Source: Burkholderia multivorans ATCC BAA-247
GTDB lineage: Bacteria; Pseudomonadota; Gammaproteobacteria; Burkholderiales; Burkholderiaceae
Reading direction: 5' to 3'
Assembly (NCBI RefSeq): GCF_000959525.1
Contig: NZ_CP009831.1
Span: 186,001 to 250,000, forward strand
DNA length: 64,000 nucleotides
Below, in pieces: positions 47,578 through 58,657 of this stretch. The notes beneath the pieces were generated by a model. It searched no databases. It was not told the origin of the DNA and saw only the letters and a program-made list of their open reading frames with translations. Each line of letters starts with the position of its first letter. Position 1 is the first letter of the stretch. Made by a program: the position numbers and the translations under genes.

Positions 47578-48240
47578 TTGGCCGCAGAAATCATTGCAGT
47601 CACTCAACAAAAAGGCGGTGTCGGCAAAAGCACGATCGCCATGCATCTCGGTGCCGCATTCCATGAAAAGGGAAAACGCGTCCTCGTCATCGATGCAGAC
47701 GGCCAAAACACACTGGTTCATTGGTCCAGCGCATCGGGCGACGGCGACAACGGCATTCCTTTCCCCGTCGTCAATCTCGCGGAAGCGGGCGGCCAGATCC
47801 ACCGCGAGATCAAGAAGTTCATCAACGACTACGACATCATCGTCGTCGACTGTCCGCCGTCGATCACCGAGAAGGTGTCCGGTGTCGTCCTGCTGGCGGC
47901 ATCGATTGCCGTGATTCCGACGTCGTCGTCGCCGGCCGATTACTGGTCGAGCGTCGGCCTCGTGAAGCTGATCCAGCAGGCGCAGGTGATGAACGAAGAC
48001 CTGCGTGCGGTATTCCTGCTGAACAAGACCGAGGAAAAGCGAATGCTGACGCGCGAACTGAAGCGCGCGCTCGAAGAACTCGGCTTCCCGCTGTTGAAGA
48101 CGCAAATCCCGACCCGCGAAGCGTACAAGCAGGCCATGGCGCTCGGCCAGACCGTCCTGCAGATGAACGATCGCGGCGCCAAGCTCGCGGCCGCGGAAAT
48201 TCGCGCATGTGCCGACGAAATCGTCGCGATGCTGCCCTGA
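47578..48240 (+). CDS. parA: Chromosome-partition ATPase ParA (secondary chromosome)
   Basis: 220 residues, a short ParA/MinD-type ATPase with no amino-terminal DNA-binding extension. The deviant Walker A KGGVGKST lies at residues 11-18, VLVIDADGQ near 35-43 and the Walker B-like IIVVDCPPS near 88. ParA moves replicated origins apart along the nucleoid with ParB bound at parS. The start codon is TTG at 47578, with AGGAG seven bases before and no in-frame ATG before the Walker box. Lacking a DNA-binding domain, it should not repress its own promoter; parS sites upstream suggest ParB does. parB follows after 23 bases. Confidence 0.95.
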   Translation: MAAEIIAVTQQKGGVGKSTIAMHLGAAFHEKGKRVLVIDADGQNTLVHWSSASGDGDNGIPFPVVNLAEAGGQIHREIKKFINDYDIIVVDCPPSITEKVSGVVLLAASIAVIPTSSSPADYWSSVGLVKLIQQAQVMNEDLRAVFLLNKTEEKRMLTRELKRALEELGFPLLKTQIPTREAYKQAMALGQTVLQMNDRGAKLAAAEIRACADEIVAMLP

Positions 48241-48263: not shown

Positions 48264-49325
48264 ATGAAACCCTCCCAGTTTGCAAAAGGATTCCAGGCGC
48301 GCCCGGATATCACGACGAGCGAGAAGCGCACGGCACTTGACCGGCTGAACGCGATCGACGGCATCGTCAAGTCCGACGCCCCCGCGCCGGCAACCGCGAA
48401 GTCGGCGAAGAAAGACAGCGCCGCGCCGCATGTGCCGGACCTCGCGATCGATCTGTCGACCGACGAATCGCCGCAGTATCGTGCGTGGCGTCTCGAGAAC
48501 CGCTACGCGCCCGGCCAGGTGATCGAACTGCCGCTGAAGGCGATCAAGCATAGCCCGTTCAATCCTCGCCATTTCTATCTGAAGTCGTCGATTGCCGAGC
48601 TCGCGGTGAACCTCGCGAAGCAAGGGCAACAGCAGGCGATCCACGTGATTCCGGACTACGACAACCCGGGCACGTACTTCGTGAGCGACGGCGGCCGACG
48701 CGTGCGCGCGCTGAAGGAAGCGAACAAGGACTCGGTGAAGGCGATCGTGATCGACGTCCCGATCGGCATTCAGAGCTACAAGCTCGGCTACGATCTCAAC
48801 GTTCAACGCGATTCGCAAACGGTCTTCGACAATGCAGTCGTGTGGCGTCGCTTCCTCGACGACAAGCACTTCCAGAGTCAGAAGGAGCTCGCCGAGCACC
48901 TCGGTCTCGACGAATCGACGGTCGCCGTTGCACTGTCGATCGGCAAGCTGCCGGAAGCAGTGATGCAGGAGATGGTTGCGCGGCCCGATCGCTTCGGTTC
49001 GAACATGGCATATCAGGTCGGCCGCTATCACGCTGCGCGCGGCACGGAAGCGACGCTGCGGCTGATCAACAAGATCGTGTCGGACGATCTCAGCACGCGT
49101 CAGGTATCGGACATCGTGAAGGGCCGCGTCGCGGCGCAGGACGCGCCGAAGCCGGCGAGCCGCCAGCGCTACGCTCAGCGGCTGGAAATCAAGCTCGGCG
49201 GGAAGTCGGTCGGCGATTTGAAGTCGTACGGCGACGATCGCATCGAACTGCGTCTGCGCGGCCTGCCGAAGGACAAGCGCGATGCGATCCTCGAGCAACT
49301 CGAGCGCATGCTGTTGGCGGACTGA
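48264..49325 (+). CDS. parB: Centromere-binding protein ParB (secondary chromosome)
   Basis: 353 residues. The ParB amino-terminal CTPase domain lies at about 90-190, with IKHSPFNPRHFY and FVSDGGRRVRALKEA. A helix-turn-helix (KELAEHLGLDESTVAVALSIGKLPEAVM) lies near 205-235, followed by a dimerisation tail. It binds the TTTATGCGCATAAA sites around it and spreads as a clamp, working with ParA. The amino terminus, about 70 residues, is rich in Lys, Ala and Asp and probably flexible. It ends at a hairpin shared with the convergent rep gene. Confidence 0.96.
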   Translation: MKPSQFAKGFQARPDITTSEKRTALDRLNAIDGIVKSDAPAPATAKSAKKDSAAPHVPDLAIDLSTDESPQYRAWRLENRYAPGQVIELPLKAIKHSPFNPRHFYLKSSIAELAVNLAKQGQQQAIHVIPDYDNPGTYFVSDGGRRVRALKEANKDSVKAIVIDVPIGIQSYKLGYDLNVQRDSQTVFDNAVVWRRFLDDKHFQSQKELAEHLGLDESTVAVALSIGKLPEAVMQEMVARPDRFGSNMAYQVGRYHAARGTEATLRLINKIVSDDLSTRQVSDIVKGRVAAQDAPKPASRQRYAQRLEIKLGGKSVGDLKSYGDDRIELRLRGLPKDKRDAILEQLERMLLAD

Positions 49326-49403: not shown

Positions 49404-50768
49404 TTACGCAGCCCTGGACTGGTTCAGCGTAAATGCGAGCAGATCGCCGTCGGTCGGCTCGCCCCAGGTCTTCTGGGCCAGCCAGTCGAAGAAGGCCGTC
49501 TCGGCCAGCTTGGATTCGAGCCCGCGCTTGCGCCAGTCGTCCCGCAGATGCGTGCCCAGCGTCGGCAGCGCTTCGGCCTCGAACGACTCGCGCGCCACTT
49601 CGCGTTCCAGCTCGCCCTGTTCCTCGTACAGCACCTTCGCTTCCTTCCGGCGGAACGCCGCGAATTCGCTGAGCAGTCGCGCCTTCAGATCGTCCGGCTG
49701 AGCCGCAGCACCCTTCGCCGACGGCGCCGCGGCCGGCAGTGCGTCGACCGCATCGACCGGCGGCGCATAGCCTTTCTTCAACGCATCCTTGAACAACGCG
49801 GCGGCGCTGCGCACCGGCGGCAGCGTCGTGCTGCGCATGCGCTGCTCGGTCATCTGCAACGCTGCGCGGATACGATTCTCTTCGCTGTCCGCATAGAGCG
49901 TCTGCGCCTCCTTCAGCGGGATGCCGAGCTTCACCATCCGGTCCACCAGCGTGCTGTCGAAGACGTTCGGATGCTCGTCGAGCGCCAGCATCGGTTGCTT
50001 GCGCTCGGTCACGCGGAACTGGATCTCGGCCACTCGCCGCCCTTCGCGATGCTCGATCAGCTCGACGAAGATATTGGTAACCGCGTTGACCTCCGCGATC
50101 GCCGGGCGCAGATAGTCGCGCTTGAAGTACTTGTACTCGCGCTTCGCTTCGTCGCCGGCTTCGGTGTCGGGCGTGCCCGACAGAATCGGCCGCCACCATT
50201 CCCACGGCTCGCGCATCGTCAGGTGGCTCGGGTTCGTCAGATAGCGCACGCAGATCTCGTAGAGCGCGAGGCCGGCGCTGCTGCGCAGCTGGCTCTGGAA
50301 CTGCAGGCTCAGGCGCGCATACTGCACCGGATCGAGCAGTTTCTTCTTGATCTTCGGCGCGAACGAAAATTCGACCCACACGCGCCGTGTAGCCGGATCT
50401 TCGAGAATTTCGGCGTCGGCGATCAGCGTGGAGATCCCCCATTTGCGGCCGGGCTTCTGGCTCGACGTGCCCGTGCTCCATTCCACCTGCACCGACACCA
50501 TCCGGCGCAGATGCTCCTTCACCAGCGCGGTGTCGTTCGAATCGAATGCGGAGTTGGCGACGATGTCCGACAACAGCGCGCGATACGTATCGCCCGAGTC
50601 GTCGGCCTGCTGCGCGACGGCGAGCAGGACATTGAACAGCTTGCGAGTCAGGAGCGTGATCTTGCCGCTCTTCGGCTGAATTGCGATTGCCTCGACGGCC
50701 TTCCGCAATTCGGCTGAACTGGCACTCACCACATCCACATCGGTTTTCTTGGCGCGCTTCGTGGCCAT
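49404..50768 (-). CDS. Replication initiator protein of the secondary chromosome (plasmid Rep type)
   Basis: 454 residues. The Lys-rich start (MATKRAKKTDVDV) leads to a winged-helix region with ITLLTRKLFNVLLAVAQQ and LVKEHLRRMVSVQVEW, resembling plasmid Rep initiators of the RepA/RepB (Rep_3) kind. A second winged-helix-like part lies around 150-270, and a charged carboxy-terminal third (about 290-454) is probably regulatory. It is not DnaA. The protein should bind the repeated CCCGAAAA-n-CCTCACC boxes in the adjacent 1.8-kb gene-free region and open the origin. It is convergent with parAB. A specific family name needs a profile search. Confidence 0.88.
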   Translation of the reverse strand: MATKRAKKTDVDVVSASSAELRKAVEAIAIQPKSGKITLLTRKLFNVLLAVAQQADDSGDTYRALLSDIVANSAFDSNDTALVKEHLRRMVSVQVEWSTGTSSQKPGRKWGISTLIADAEILEDPATRRVWVEFSFAPKIKKKLLDPVQYARLSLQFQSQLRSSAGLALYEICVRYLTNPSHLTMREPWEWWRPILSGTPDTEAGDEAKREYKYFKRDYLRPAIAEVNAVTNIFVELIEHREGRRVAEIQFRVTERKQPMLALDEHPNVFDSTLVDRMVKLGIPLKEAQTLYADSEENRIRAALQMTEQRMRSTTLPPVRSAAALFKDALKKGYAPPVDAVDALPAAAPSAKGAAAQPDDLKARLLSEFAAFRRKEAKVLYEEQGELEREVARESFEAEALPTLGTHLRDDWRKRGLESKLAETAFFDWLAQKTWGEPTDGDLLAFTLNQSRAA

Positions 50769-50960
50769 GCGTCGGGTCGGAGGAGAAGTTTCCCGGAAGG
50801 ATAGCGCCTGTGGTGATGTGCGTCCAGAACGACATGCTCACCATAGCCGGTGAAGCACGCAGATGAAACGGCACTCACCCCAATCGCTCCCGTAAACCCT
50901 CACCGGTCCGCGGCAACTGCGTTTCAGCCGATTCCAGACATGTCGCGGGATGCACGGATT

Positions 50961-50978
50961 CACAGAATTTTGCCTGTG
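50961..50978. promoter_or_regulatory. Inverted repeat CACAG-N8-CTGTG, left copy
   Basis: CACAG, eight bases, CTGTG, between rep and the main repeat array, 193 bases upstream of the rep start. A similar element lies near the right end of the array. Possibly a rep operator or a site for a second origin protein. Confidence 0.55.
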
Positions 50979-51112
50979 CAGAATACGTGCGCAATCGGCT
51001 CCCGTATCAGCTCACCTTTCGAATTGTCGTAATTTTGCGACTGTTCGACGGGGTGACCGCGGCGTCTTATCCGCGGTGCTCGCACTGCAGGTGCCAAGCC
51101 GCCAATACAAGG

Positions 51113-51128
51113 CTGTATGTCCATACAG
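51113..51128. promoter_or_regulatory. CTGT-N8-ACAG palindrome (possible LexA site)
   Basis: CTGTATGTCCATACAG, seven-base arms around a two-base centre. It fits the CTGT-N8-ACAG LexA consensus of many proteobacteria, but the outer flanks (GG/CA) are not typical. It lies about 345 bases upstream of rep. Confidence 0.4.
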
Positions 51129-51993
51129 CAGCGGTCCAACAGCGTGATTGCGCGAGTGCGCGACGTCGACGAACGGCCGTGCACGCCGCATCCCGGTGCC
51201 CAACCCGGCAGCGTTTCGACGGGCGGACGCGCATTGTACAGCGCTCACTGCGGCACGGGTCCCGAAAACGCTCACCTTAGCGACGCCGGATCACAGCGAT
51301 CGAAGTCGGGTCGACGCCCGACATATGGGCGCTCGACTGTATGCCGTTCCCGAAAAGCCTCACCTTTGCGTCCGAAAGCGATGTCGCGCAGGCCATCCAC
51401 ACAGCTCCCGAAAAACCTCACCGTAACCTCGGCGGTTTCAAAAATCCCAATGGCGTCCAATACTTATGCGCTGCAGCGAATTCCACTGTGTCGCACGGTC
51501 GCTCCCCGAAAAACCTCACCTTTTCACGCGAACACAGAGCCGTCAAAGTCGAAATTCACTCCCGAAAAGGCTCACCTATGCGGGAAAAGGTCACAGTAAA
51601 ACGGAGATTTTTCCCGCGCCAGGCGGGCTTTCCGGCGATATCGACCGGCCATCGCTCCCGAAAAGCCTCACCTGTGCGCAATATGTGTGCAGATTCTGCT
51701 CCCGAAAAAGCTCACCTCTAGCGCGCTTGCCCCACTGTGAAACCTATCCCGAAGACGCTCACCTTATGCCGATCGAGGTAGACAACCCGCCGCTTCGCTC
51801 CCGAAAACCCTCACCTTTGCGGCGCCACAGGCATCGAATAGCGCTTTTGGTCGACAAAACCGCCTTCGTTTCCCGGAAATCCTCACATCAAAACGCCGCG
51901 AAGTCCCGTGAAACCTCACCTTTCGGGAAAATTGCCTAAAAGTTGGGCAAAAACGGGGCGCAAAGGATCTCCTGCAAATTCTCACCTATGTCT

Positions 51994-52013
51994 GCACAGG
52001 CAGAAAACTGTGC
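51994..52013. promoter_or_regulatory. Inverted repeat GCACAG-N8-CTGTGC, right copy
   Basis: Six-base arms with an eight-base spacer, the same geometry as the element at 50961-50978. The pair brackets most of the initiator-box array. Confidence 0.55.
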
Positions 52014-52306
52014 ACGCTGCTGCTGTGCGGGTCGCGCGGCTGTGCGCCCCCGAAAAGCCTCACCTTTGCGTATTTCCGGTTTTCACTGTGATCCCGAATC
52101 CGCTCACGACCTTTCCTGCAACGGCTCACGCTGCTCCCCGAACCCCATCACGTCGGCTCCCGCAGAAGGTCACCTTGTCTCCCGTAAAACTTCACCTTGC
52201 CGGCCGGAGAGCCTTGCTACGTAAGGCTGTGCCGTGGCGTTAACGTTTTTAACTAAGGGTTCAAGGGTGTTTACTTCTAATACTCTCAACACCCCTGCCT
52301 GCGGAG

Positions 52307-52590: not shown

Positions 52591-53772
52591 ATGACCGTCG
52601 ACGAAATGCGTCAGAGCATTCGGGAAGAACTGGAATCGATGCGCGCGGCAGGCGCGCGTCGCCAGGAATTGTCGCTGCACGCCTGCAAGCGGTTGTTTTT
52701 CGATCTCGGGATCCGGCCCTCGGCGGCCAATGTGCGGGACCTTACGCAAACCGGCAGCGCCAGCGATATTCCGAAAGACATCGACCATTTCTGGGAGCGT
52801 ATCCGCTCCGCGTCGAAAGTGCGGCTCGAGGGGGCCGCGATTCCCAAAAGCGTCGAGGAAAAGGCCGGCGCGCTGATCGGCGCGCTCTATGAAGAAGCGC
52901 TGAAAGCCGCGCGCGACGGTCTCGACGTCGATCGGCAACAGGTGCGCGCCGAGATGGCCGCGGCCGAACAGCGGTTGCGCGATGCGACCGTTCGTCAGGA
53001 AACGCTCGAAGCCGCGCTCGCGCGTAGCGAAGCCCGCAATGAACAGTTGCAGGCGCGCGTGACCGAGCTCGAAGTTCAGCTCGCATCGCAAACGACGCAC
53101 GGTTCGGCGAACGAGGCCACGTTGCGCGCGACGGTCGCGCGGCTGGAAACGGAACTGGCCGCCGCCCACGGCCGCGTCGATACCGAGCAGACGCTGAACG
53201 CGACGCTGCGCGATCGGATCGACGAACTGCAGGCCGAACTTCAGCATCGCACCGAACACTACGCGCAGCAGATCAAGGATGCGGTGGCCGAGGCCGAACG
53301 GCGCGTGAAGCCGATGCTCGTCGAACTGGACTCGTTGCGCAGCATGGCGTCGACCTACCAGAGCGGTTTGCGCGACGTGCAGCGCAAGGAATTCGATTTC
53401 CTTCAGCAGCTCAGTGCAGCAAAGGCGCGCGCCGACCGGCTCGAAGAGCAGTTGCGCACGCAGAGCGACGAACTCGAACGCGCGACGCGCGACGTGAACG
53501 CACTGCGCGCGAATCGCACGATGAGCCCCGAGATTGCGACGCTGATTCGACGGCTTGCGGATGCGGGACACCTGGACGCCGATGCGTTCGCCGCGATCGG
53601 CACGGCGCTCGATCACGATGTGCCGGTGCCGAGCCAGTGTCCGCACTGCGACGGCGAACCCGAGCTGTCGCACACCGACGACGGTTTCGAAGTGTCATGC
53701 CCGGAATGCGAGCACGCGTCGGGATCCTGGCCGTCGCGCCTCGAGGCCGTCACGCGTTTTGCGCGTCGGTAA
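52591..53772 (+). CDS. KfrA-like DNA-binding coiled-coil protein with a C-terminal zinc ribbon
   Basis: 393 residues. Residues about 1-115 resemble the KfrA amino-terminal DNA-binding domain (MTVDEMRQSIREELESMRA start). A very long alpha-helical coiled coil, about 115-300, is rich in Ala, Glu and Arg with heptad-like Leu. The last 50 residues carry CPHC, about 17 residues, then CPEC, a likely zinc ribbon not usual for plasmid KfrA. KfrA proteins aid plasmid partition and repress their own promoter; a similar origin-linked role is inferred. It is the first gene on the far side of the origin region and reads away from it. A TATGAT hexamer at 52555-52560 may be its -10. Confidence 0.8.
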   Translation: MTVDEMRQSIREELESMRAAGARRQELSLHACKRLFFDLGIRPSAANVRDLTQTGSASDIPKDIDHFWERIRSASKVRLEGAAIPKSVEEKAGALIGALYEEALKAARDGLDVDRQQVRAEMAAAEQRLRDATVRQETLEAALARSEARNEQLQARVTELEVQLASQTTHGSANEATLRATVARLETELAAAHGRVDTEQTLNATLRDRIDELQAELQHRTEHYAQQIKDAVAEAERRVKPMLVELDSLRSMASTYQSGLRDVQRKEFDFLQQLSAAKARADRLEEQLRTQSDELERATRDVNALRANRTMSPEIATLIRRLADAGHLDADAFAAIGTALDHDVPVPSQCPHCDGEPELSHTDDGFEVSCPECEHASGSWPSRLEAVTRFARR

Positions 53773-53801: not shown

Positions 53802-53842
53802 GGTGAGAATTTTCGGGAAGCGTGAGGTGAGGATTTTCGGGA
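53802..53842 (-). repeat. Two initiator-box copies in inverted orientation
   Basis: GGTGAGAATTTTCGGGA (53802-53818) and GGTGAGGATTTTCGGGA (53826-53842). They are reverse complements of the origin-array consensus, placed between the convergent KfrA-like and recombinase-like genes, 1.6 kb from the main array. Confidence 0.88.
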
Positions 53843-53913
53843 CCCAAAAACAGGTGAGGCCGCGCCAGGCAACGCGCTCACGGTTCGCTTCCCCGTGAGC
53901 GGCCACCTGCGAA

Positions 53914-54927
53914 TCAGTGAGTTTCGCCGCTGTCGACAGCGTCACCTTCGACCAACTCCGCTCGCCAGGTTTTCCACGCGCGGTGCAGACGGTTCGCCGA
54001 AATCGGCTGCACGAACCCCAGCCACTTGCCGACCCGCTCCGGCGGCACGTCATGCTCGAACAGCTCGGCAGCATAGGTGTTGCGCAAGGTCTGCGGGCTT
54101 GTGCGCGCCGTGCGCGACGACGTCAGCCCGGCCGATTCGACGATCGCATCGATCGCGCGCAGCATCGTCGCCTTGTGCATGGGTCGCCCGGTGTGCGACG
54201 CCGGGAACACGAGATCGCCCGGAATCTGCTGCCGGCTGCGCTCCGCGAGCCAGGCATCGAATAACGCGATCGCGAACGAGGCGAGATGCGCGTCGCGTGC
54301 GAAGTCCGGATGCGTGGATGGAATCCGCAGCGACGTGCCGCTCGTATCGACGCAACTAATCGTGAGCACGCGTGCTTCGCCCGTCTTGATGCCGGCGCCG
54401 AGAAAGGCGGCGACTAGCGCACGGTCGCGGCGCTCTTTCCAATAGGCTGCACCCGACACACCGATCGGCGAAAACAGATAGGCGAGCAGCGCCGCGCGCT
54501 CGGCCGGCGTCAGAAAGCTGGTCGGCTCGTTGTCGCGTGCCTTGCGCCAGTCCGCTTCGCCATCCTGAGCGATGAAGCGCGCCGGATTCGTCGACGCGAA
54601 TTCGGTGCGGCGAATATGGTCGAGTACACGCTCGATGAGCCGCAGATAACGCAGCCGCTGCGTTTTGCGAATCGGCAGGTCGCCGACGAACTCGGCGATC
54701 GACGCGGTATCGACGGTCGCGAGATTTTTCTGACGTGCGCGCAGCCACGCGAGAAATGCGCCCCATTGCGCGCGATAGACGTCGGCCGACGAGCGGCGGT
54801 AGTCCTGCATTGCCAGCCATGCGTCGAACGCGGCTTCGGGCGAAACGATCCAGTCGGATGCGCCGCGGTCGAACAGATCCTTTTCTTCTGCGCGCGCCGG
54901 TGGCGCGGCCGGGGTGGGAAGGGACAT
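53914..54927 (-). CDS. Tyrosine-recombinase-fold protein lacking the catalytic residues
   Basis: 337 residues with XerC/XerD-like architecture: amino-terminal core-binding domain (about 30-130) and catalytic-type domain (about 138-325). The catalytic positions are mostly lost. Box I reads GAGIKTGEA (Lys181 for Arg). Box II reads SPQTLRNTY (Gln279 for the first His, Arg282 kept, Asn for the next His). The GH of LGH is GF (Phe305), and the nucleophile Tyr position is Leu314. Strand cleavage is therefore not expected. The frame is intact and codon use is normal, so the protein is probably maintained for DNA binding or protein contact. It reads toward the origin. The SOS-box gene lies 84 bases upstream in the same direction, so both may share a transcript. 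Confidence 0.85.
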   Translation of the reverse strand: MSLPTPAAPPARAEEKDLFDRGASDWIVSPEAAFDAWLAMQDYRRSSADVYRAQWGAFLAWLRARQKNLATVDTASIAEFVGDLPIRKTQRLRYLRLIERVLDHIRRTEFASTNPARFIAQDGEADWRKARDNEPTSFLTPAERAALLAYLFSPIGVSGAAYWKERRDRALVAAFLGAGIKTGEARVLTISCVDTSGTSLRIPSTHPDFARDAHLASFAIALFDAWLAERSRQQIPGDLVFPASHTGRPMHKATMLRAIDAIVESAGLTSSRTARTSPQTLRNTYAAELFEHDVPPERVGKWLGFVQPISANRLHRAWKTWRAELVEGDAVDSGETH

Positions 54928-55011
54928 ATGATTTATTCCGTTAGTTGCGTATATGGTAGGGCGTTCGCAACATTTCGGGTAGCGGCGCGTCAGAGCGCGT
55001 CGCGCGCGCCG

Positions 55012-55398
55012 TCAATCGCCCCATGCCTGCTGACGCGCGCTCGGGGTGCGTTCGTGCCGCGTGCCGGCCTCCGACTCGGCGCGCGCGGCGGCCTCGTAGG
55101 CGAGCACCGCGAACGAGAAGACGGCGGGCAGCGCGTTCGACCGACCGAAATCGATCGGATCGTCGGTTTGGGGAAACGTCATGTCGGCCGGCCGTTCGAA
55201 CAGCTGCCGCATGCCGGCGTCGTGGCGGCTCGCAAAGCCGAGATCGGCGAGCGCTTCGGCTTCGATGGCGTGCAGCAGGCGCCACGTGAGCGGCACGCGC
55301 TGGCGGATATAGCGCGCCGCGATATGGCGGACGATGTGCTCGAGATCGTGCGCGGCAGCCTTGAAGCTGAGCGCGGCCAGGTCTTGTTCTTCTGTCAT
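55012..55398 (-). CDS. Unknown small protein downstream of an SOS box
   Basis: 128 residues, no recognised family. The amino-terminal half is helical (LAALSFKAAAHDLEHIVRHI, LTWRLLHAIEAEALADLGF) and is followed by PADMTFPQTDDPIDFGRSNA. The end is charged (RHERTPSARQQAWGD). No signal peptide; one mildly hydrophobic stretch (LPAVFSFAVLAYEAAA). AGGAG precedes the ATG at 55398. A near-consensus LexA box lies 68 bases upstream, so induction by DNA damage is likely. The recombinase-like gene follows in the same direction after 84 bases with no terminator seen between. Function unknown. Confidence 0.8.
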   Translation of the reverse strand: MTEEQDLAALSFKAAAHDLEHIVRHIAARYIRQRVPLTWRLLHAIEAEALADLGFASRHDAGMRQLFERPADMTFPQTDDPIDFGRSNALPAVFSFAVLAYEAAARAESEAGTRHERTPSARQQAWGD

Positions 55399-55465
55399 CG
55401 CAGGCTCCTGTCGGGCCGGCGCGGCGTGCGGCGCCGCTCGGCCAGTGCATGGCGGAATGTCCGTA

Positions 55466-55497
55466 TACTGTACAAATATACAGTTATTTCCGCAACT
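55466..55497 (-). promoter_or_regulatory. LexA (SOS) box overlapping a promoter
   Basis: Read on the plus strand, TACTGTACAAATATACAGTT (55466-55485) matches CTGT-N8-ACAG with AT-rich centre and TA/TT flanks, close to the Escherichia coli SOS box. On the minus strand TTGCGG, 17 bases, TACAGT make a promoter whose -10 is inside the box. It points to the unknown gene at 55012-55398. Confidence 0.75.
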
Positions 55498-55523: not shown

Positions 55524-56135
55524 TCAGCGATGGATCACGATCAGCAGTGCGCGGGCTTCGGCCTTGCCCGGATTGCGAATCGCGTGGGGCGTGTCGGCGG
55601 CATAGCGGCCGGTGTCGCCGGCCTTCAGGCGCCGGCTCGCGGCGCCGGCCTCGATCTCCATCGTCCCTTGCAGCACGGTGAGGTGTTCGCGCGTGCCGGG
55701 TTCGTGCGCATTCGACACGAGCGCGCCGCCGCCCGGCAGCGTGAGTTCGTACCACTCGAATTTGCCGGCAAGATCGATCGGCCCCCACACGCGCAGCTGG
55801 TATTGACCGTCATGGCCGGCGAGCGTCGGGATGTCGTGCGGTCCGTCCACGCGAATCGTTTCGGGCACTTTCGGCTGCGAGAACAGCTCGTCGAGCGTGA
55901 TGCCGAGCGCGTTCGTCAGCCGCCATGCGACCGCAATCGTCGGGTTCGCCTTGTCGCGCTCGATCTCGGAGAGCATCGATTTCGAGACACCGGCCGCCCG
56001 GGACAGATCGTCGAGCGTGAGCTTGCGTTCGTTGCGCAGCCGCTGGATCTGTTCGCCGACGCGCGGCGGCGTCGCGGCCGGCGGCTGCGGGGCGGCGCCG
56101 GCAGCCGTGCGCCGCGATCCGGATGAACTTGCCAT
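55524..56135 (-). CDS. XRE-family regulator with a C-terminal cupin domain
   Basis: 203 residues. After an Ala/Pro-rich leader of about 25 residues comes an XRE helix-turn-helix (IQRLRNERKLTLDDLSRAAGVSKSMLSEIER), then a cupin_2 beta-barrel (about 115-200; EPGTREHLTVLQGTMEIEAG and RYAADTPHAIRNPG with His as possible metal or ligand residues). Such regulators often sense a small metabolite of the pathway beside them. It is divergent from kbl-tdh, so control of threonine breakdown is a reasonable inference. A 9-bp inverted repeat lies between the divergent starts. Confidence 0.92.
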   Translation of the reverse strand: MASSSGSRRTAAGAAPQPPAATPPRVGEQIQRLRNERKLTLDDLSRAAGVSKSMLSEIERDKANPTIAVAWRLTNALGITLDELFSQPKVPETIRVDGPHDIPTLAGHDGQYQLRVWGPIDLAGKFEWYELTLPGGGALVSNAHEPGTREHLTVLQGTMEIEAGAASRRLKAGDTGRYAADTPHAIRNPGKAEARALLIVIHR

Positions 56136-58639: not shown

Positions 58640-58657
58640 GGTGAGAAGATTCGGGAG
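58640..58657 (-). repeat. Distal initiator box
   Basis: GGTGAGAAGATTCGGGAG, the reverse orientation of the origin-array consensus, in non-coding DNA 95 bases after tdh and about 6.4 kb from the main array. Confidence 0.8.

Follow-up and report, generated by a model that had tools for sequence, protein, structure and literature searches.

A conserved LexA-type operator upstream of DUF2471 points to a probable Burkholderiaceae SOS gene, paired with a recombinase-like gene lacking the catalytic residues beside the second-chromosome origin of Burkholderia multivorans

We analysed a stretch of 64,000 nucleotides (nt) from Burkholderia multivorans ATCC BAA-247 (hereafter the window; contig 2, positions 186001-250000, of a 6.32 Mb genome in three contigs), in which a small gene of the DUF2471 family is preceded by a LexA-type operator and followed, on the same strand, by a gene with a tyrosine-recombinase fold. 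DUF2471 is very probably an SOS gene of the Burkholderiaceae, given the conservation of the operator, its rank among the sites of its own genome, a boxed paralogue, the association, in Pandoraea, of boxed DUF2471 with a gene for a Cho-type nuclease, and boxed copies on viral contigs. The elements of the locus are as follows, with gene coordinates, sizes and strands agreeing with those of a preliminary description made from the sequence alone:

55466-55485, no strand assigned: LexA-type operator with the core CTGTACAAATATACAG at 55468-55483 (CTGTATATTTGTACAG on the coding strand), assigned from the exact match, conservation and matrix rank
55467-55495, minus strand: predicted sigma-70-like promoter, read by eye as TTGCGG (55495-55490), 17 nt and TACAGT (55472-55467)
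55012-55398, minus strand: DUF2471 gene, 128 amino acids, predicted all-helical (PF10616, E 1.2e-53)
54928-55011, minus strand: intergenic gap of 84 nt, no intrinsic terminator listed (sequence and terminator scan)
53914-54927, minus strand: gene for a protein of 337 amino acids with a tyrosine-recombinase fold, catalytic set lost (PF00589, E 2.4e-15)

The core of the operator matches CTGT-N8-ACAG exactly. The bare pattern is weak evidence: it occurs twice in the window, where 0.29 occurrences would be expected, but 6 of 100 shuffles also reach two, and its 30 matches genome-wide barely exceed the 23 of the reversed pattern used as a control. It is conservation that decides. The same type of box precedes lexA (two boxes), recA, imuA and a uvrA-like gene in this genome, the recA box also lying just ahead of a divergent response-regulator open reading frame (ORF). 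In a 24-position matrix built from these five reference boxes, the DUF2471 box scores 33.2 and ranks fifth among the 30 genomic sites, between imuA (33.8) and recA (32.7); the scores of the reference boxes are themselves inflated because those five formed the training set, and when each was left out in turn they scored 18.9 to 36.0.

Two further results concern such boxes elsewhere in the genome. The first start codon of a FAN1-like VRR_NUC nuclease gene (L011, 1501-3016) lies 13 nt downstream of a CTGT-N8-ACAG box, which has a matrix rank of 16 of 30. At five sites (L001, L013, L260, L261 and L262) the genome carries one and the same box-like 16-mer, CTGTAGGCGAAAACAG, or the complement of it, and the four that were checked all lie beside the same ORF; these are probably ribosomal RNA operons rather than LexA sites.

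Conservation bears out the LexA box that the preliminary description had placed before the small gene. DUF2471 is present in all 61 genomes of the genus searched, and in 60 of them a perfect box is found no more than about 350 nt ahead of the gene. Loss of the box with retention of the gene, which the preliminary description had set down as evidence against its proposal, is seen in one genome (G034) but not in the other 60; a match to the XRE gene is also missing from about 1.2 kb upstream in G034, and since the usual neighbour has gone too, the loss fits an insertion or rearrangement. Among the named loci (the best 80 of 198 relatives, from Burkholderia, Paraburkholderia and Trinickia), a perfect box precedes DUF2471 in every one, against 3 of 1592 equal-sized control windows from the same loci. 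All 80 loci have the same eight core bases, with a mean majority-base identity of 51% in the 40 nt upstream and 53% in the 30 nt downstream. The operator is conserved together with its gene across relatives.

The family extends beyond the genus. PF10616 was matched in 136 of 249 genomes of a family-wide sample, 105 of them outside the genus, and in 10 of 25 genera; in an order-wide sample it was matched in 5 of 349 genomes, four of which belong to the family of the window. Upstream DNA outside the genus was examined at the main copy for 39 of the 105 genomes and at other copies for seven more (three Pandoraea, three of genus g3, and G095); the counts do not extend to the main copies in the remaining 59. 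A perfect box was present in all 30 top-scoring loci (L046-L075) and in all nine further loci (L109-L115, L132 and L133); in genus g3 it was perfect in one of three loci, the best match in the other two having one mismatch. Given the invariant box core in 80 loci and the presence of the family in every one of the 61 genus genomes as well as in 10 of 25 genera, DUF2471 is likely to be a core SOS gene of a family that includes important opportunistic pathogens.

The gene that the preliminary description called unknown does belong to a Pfam family, DUF2471 (PF10616; 180.5 bits against a gathering cut-off of 25). An AlphaFold2 model shows four helices (predicted local distance difference test, pLDDT, 85; predicted template modelling score, pTM, 0.75). 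The median ratio of non-synonymous to synonymous substitution rates (dN/dS) is 0.156, and the most conserved stretch among the closer relatives is LTWRLLHxIExEALADLGxxxRH. The nearest protein in a plasmid collection, which may omit the window's own or very near genomes, is from Burkholderia multivorans and 96.9% identical. The literature searched yielded no published function for DUF2471 and no mention of the term, and we go no further than to suggest that the protein is a small SOS effector or adaptor.

Two hypothetical genes, hypA and hypB, were predicted to be LexA-regulated in multi-chromosome beta-proteobacteria (Sanchez-Alberola et al. 2012, PMC3323433), the passages available describing hypA as having no homologues outside that group and hypB as restricted to Burkholderia. 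DUF2471 and its paralogue could fit this description, although they could not be matched to hypA and hypB in those passages, which give no locus tags or domains; in contrast to both, DUF2471 also occurs in Pandoraea. Since hypA and hypB were predicted to be LexA-regulated, part of the SOS assignment may already be in print.

Copies of DUF2471 also exist away from the second-chromosome origin (ori2). A paralogue in the same genome (C2:631359-631763, equivalent to L116 7359-7763, minus strand) is kept in 52 of the 61 genus genomes, and all 30 of its loci fetched from these 52 have a perfect box. A perfect box also precedes DUF2471 at each of the three long-form loci examined in Pandoraea (L121, L123 and L127), a single-chromosome genus. 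There the following gene on the same strand has its best NCBIfam matches, run for L121, in the Cho and DEDD exonuclease families, the former at 275 bits and below the curated cut-off of 367, the latter likewise below its own; a homologue of this gene also occurs at L133, in genus g17. The Cho excinuclease is SOS-inducible in Escherichia coli, which the boxed Pandoraea arrangement resembles; the window's genome has three Cho-family matches, all below the cut-off and none tied to DUF2471. Megaplasmid-type contigs of Mycetohabitans (L114 and L115) carry boxed DUF2471, and the stretches compared gave no match to the Rep, ParA or ParB of the window. On viral contigs a perfect box precedes DUF2471 in four of seven copies, two of them nearly identical. 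Perfect boxes are also found at L118 and, 457 nt upstream of the gene, at L124 and L141; L117 has none.

Two gene arrangements among these copies can be recorded on their own account. The viral contig L163 (1549-3548) has, in order, a LexA-type box, DUF2471, a gene resembling M78-peptidase regulators and a DUF4411/PIN-like gene, the last two of which resemble a toxin-antitoxin pair. Plasmid pBMC401 and a plasmid of B. vietnamiensis (L138 and L139) share the order H-NS gene, DUF2471, recombinase-like gene and hypothetical genes, with no box.

The gene downstream of DUF2471 matches PF00589 at 57.2 bits (cut-off 27.1), and thus encodes a protein of the tyrosine-recombinase fold, whose catalytic positions are R-K-H-R-H/W-Y. 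In an alignment with XerD, the window protein has Lys at Arg-I, Gln at His-II, Phe at His-III and Leu at the catalytic Tyr, with only Arg-II kept among these. Across 99 aligned rows (98 ORFs plus the window protein; some loci overlap and the rows are not all independent), Arg-I is Lys in 93 and Thr in six, His-II is kept in five and Arg-II in all 99, position III (His/Trp) is Phe or Leu throughout, and the tyrosine column is always Leu or Ile. Judged from its residues, the protein lacks the set of an active tyrosine recombinase, and in this the preliminary description was right to call it dead. The gene itself encodes a maintained protein and is not decaying; it is under purifying selection (median dN/dS 0.108 over 32 Burkholderia pairs, near the 0.087 of KfrA and the 0.156 of DUF2471 and above the 0.045 of the XRE gene). 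Its AlphaFold2 model is moderate (pLDDT 70.7, pTM 0.52), and the best Foldseek match is XerD (1a0p, E 2.7e-7). It resembles XerD/XerC and plasmid multimer-resolution recombinases in its fold, in its sequence relation (1a0p, E 8.8e-5) and in having a plasmid-type origin nearby, but differs from them in that Arg-I, His-II, His-III and Tyr are replaced.

Another related system is MrpR (YopR), the master repressor of the SPbeta prophage, a protein of the tyrosine-recombinase fold for which the passages available report that no recombination activity was found (PMC10516654; PDB 8bj6). The recombinase-like model matches 8bj6 at rank 40 (E 1.5e-3) and, like MrpR as described there, combines the fold with the lack of a catalytic set, judged from residues. 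According to the same passages, MrpR is kept as a DNA-binding protein, the repressor of a Bacillus phage, and it retains the lysine and the tyrosine, in contrast to the Leu or Ile of the recombinase-like proteins. YosL, which is needed for mitomycin C induction in the MrpR system, is predicted there to be a ribbon-helix-helix protein, unlike DUF2471 (PMC10516654). Through its conserved pairing with DUF2471 next to a chromosome origin, the non-catalytic recombinase may be one more example of a recombinase that has become a regulator.

The explanation that we favour, and consider probable as a whole, is that LexA represses DUF2471, that the transcript runs on into a DNA-binding recombinase-like protein, and that the partners of DUF2471 are exchangeable. 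In the undamaged cell a LexA dimer would sit on 55466-55485, inside the promoter, and keep DUF2471 off. Upon DNA damage, activated RecA would promote self-cleavage of LexA, and DUF2471 would be produced. In most Burkholderia and Paraburkholderia the transcript would probably continue into the recombinase-fold protein, which, having lost its cutting residues, would most likely be a sequence-specific DNA binder, as MrpR is. DUF2471 would then probably be the constant part of the damage response, accompanied by the recombinase-like protein, by a Cho-type nuclease in Pandoraea, or by no partner. On this explanation, boxed DUF2471 points to an unstudied part of the Burkholderiaceae DNA-damage response.

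Several observations weigh against parts of this explanation. The box occupies most of the spacer plus the -10 of TTGCGG-N17-TACAGT, so that the operator overlaps a promoter whose position was read by eye; the preliminary description had likewise placed the box over a -10, and the conservation of TTGCG across the 80 named loci backs this, but a sigma-70 consensus scan listed no promoter here at its threshold. No convincing fold match to the DUF2471 protein was found in the PDB or among viral structures, nor any sequence or structural relative of known function. With regard to the recombinase-like protein, Tyr stands one column away from the catalytic tyrosine column in 7 of the 99 rows, and the 99-row counts do not extend to the active-site lysine, although this beta-hairpin Lys looks lost in the XerD alignment. 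Three of the seven viral copies have no nearby box. The four plasmid-type loci with both DUF2471 and the recombinase gene (L129 and L130, two copies in G183; L138 and L139, both with an H-NS gene) have none within 700 nt upstream, at up to one mismatch, and neither do the short plasmid-type copies L119, L120, L122, L131, L134 (in G095), L140 (the same plasmid copy as L122) and L142.

A single transcript is plausible, because the recombinase-like gene follows DUF2471 on the same strand in 78 of the 80 named loci and, as the preliminary description had noted, no terminator is listed between the two genes in 54928-55011. The gap is below 300 nt in 77 of these loci (up to 294 nt between tblastn-aligned ends) and 1823 nt in one. 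Two Trinickia loci keep the box and DUF2471 in place without the recombinase-like gene, and therefore the box, perfect in 80 of 80 loci, tracks DUF2471. Two loci of genus g25 (L109 and L110) likewise have boxed DUF2471 without it, and at a Paraburkholderia-type locus (L054) no recombinase-like match was found within the 1.5 kb examined. These losses, together with the variable gap and the plasmid-type copies that keep the pair without a box, would suit an alternative in which the box controls DUF2471 alone and the recombinase-like gene is transcribed from a separate promoter and serves an unrelated purpose, for instance as a relic of plasmid dimer resolution kept as an architectural protein at ori2. 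The shared strand and short spacing in nearly all named loci, the lack of a listed terminator in the window and the recurrence of the pair on plasmids in a different gene setting speak against it, and we regard it as unlikely, although it is the best placed of the alternatives.

The pair does lie beside the origin of the second chromosome, as the preliminary description proposed. The gene order is parA, parB, rep, repeat array, KfrA_N gene, recombinase-like gene, DUF2471 and XRE-cupin regulator:

47578-48240, plus strand: parA (AAA_31/CbiA)
48264-49325, plus strand: parB (ParB_N)
49404-50768, minus strand: Rep3-family replication initiator of the second chromosome (Rep3_N and Rep3_C)
about 50890-52200, no strand assigned: ori2, with repeated CTCCCGAAAA-N-CTCACCTT-type motifs (direct reading)
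51113-51128, no strand assigned: second LexA-like palindrome, CTGTATGTCCATACAG, inside ori2 and about 345 nt upstream of rep (exact CTGT-N8-ACAG match)
52591-53772, plus strand: KfrA_N-domain neighbour gene (PF11740, E 1.7e-20)
55524-56135, minus strand: XRE-cupin regulator, upstream of the box and on the strand shared with DUF2471 (HTH_3 and Cupin_2)

The Rep3 initiator, found in all 61 genus genomes, the iteron-like repeats, recognised by eye without a repeat tool, and parAB together characterise a plasmid-type (Rep3/iteron) second-chromosome origin, and the CTCCCGAAAA-N-CTCACCTT-type motifs are probably Rep iterons. The further proposal that the pair acts on replication or segregation of the second chromosome is unsupported as it was stated, because boxed copies of DUF2471 are also seen in settings other than ori2 (Pandoraea, Mycetohabitans, viral contigs and the paralogue) and because two Trinickia loci lack the recombinase-like gene. 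On the favoured explanation, DUF2471 would sit at ori2 mainly because the second chromosome descends from a plasmid, and less because it acts on that replicon alone.

What keeps the chromosome-2 idea alive is the LexA-like palindrome inside ori2, which was absent from the preliminary description. It forms a conserved island within diverged sequence in 13 aligned loci. Of the 61 genus genomes, 53 were examined (30 loci, 20 regions, and G011, G024 and G056; G058 was judged from L144, because the rep gene of G058 starts a contig, and G030 from about 580 nt ahead of rep), and 43 of these carry the palindrome, at a distance of about 322-386 nt on the upstream side of rep. The most usual sequence of the palindrome, CTGTATGCATGTACAG, departs from that of the DUF2471 box, CTGTATGTTTGTACAG, at two central bases. 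It is conceivable, then, that LexA acts on both the DUF2471 operator and the ori2 palindrome and that the pair adjusts Rep activity or origin pairing, so that initiation or segregation of chromosome 2 is held or re-timed during DNA damage; the position of the pair next to Rep, parAB and KfrA would fit. The palindrome is, however, absent from 10 of the 53 genus genomes and from all seven ori2 regions of other genera scanned, although those loci keep the DUF2471 box. It also falls below most SOS boxes (matrix score 22.6, rank 14 of 30; the weaker lexA box reaches 25.7, falling to 18.9 if it is excluded from the matrix), its flanks are mostly G/C, and DUF2471 exists without ori2. The palindrome could be a weak LexA site or a site of another protein, and we doubt that such a circuit operates. 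Similarly doubtful is the fully wired version, in which damage would free the ori2 site and the DUF2471 promoter of LexA together and thereby re-set initiation or origin handling on chromosome 2; if true, it would mean that a bacterium with several chromosomes has a DNA-damage checkpoint specific to one replicon. The palindrome makes the question of a secondary-chromosome checkpoint directly testable.

That the box belongs to a non-LexA repressor with a similar palindrome is very improbable: the barely elevated genome count of the bare pattern would allow it, but the same box type stands ahead of lexA, recA, imuA and the uvrA-like gene, and boxed DUF2471 stands ahead of a Cho-type nuclease gene in Pandoraea.

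In the passages of the literature searched, we did not find the family-wide conservation of the operator, the paralogue, the coupling to a Cho-type gene, the viral couplings, the partner without a catalytic set or the palindrome in ori2.

The origin region holds further conserved or iteron-like sequence. A second conserved island, GCGCATTGTACAGCGC, at 51229-51244, is situated about 100 nt further right than the ori2 palindrome and has TGTACAG in common with the palindrome in its common form. Iteron-like motifs of the GGTGAG-N-TTCGGGA type also occur outside the main ori2 array, at 53802-53860, between the KfrA and recombinase-like genes, and at 58640-58657, about 3 kb past DUF2471.
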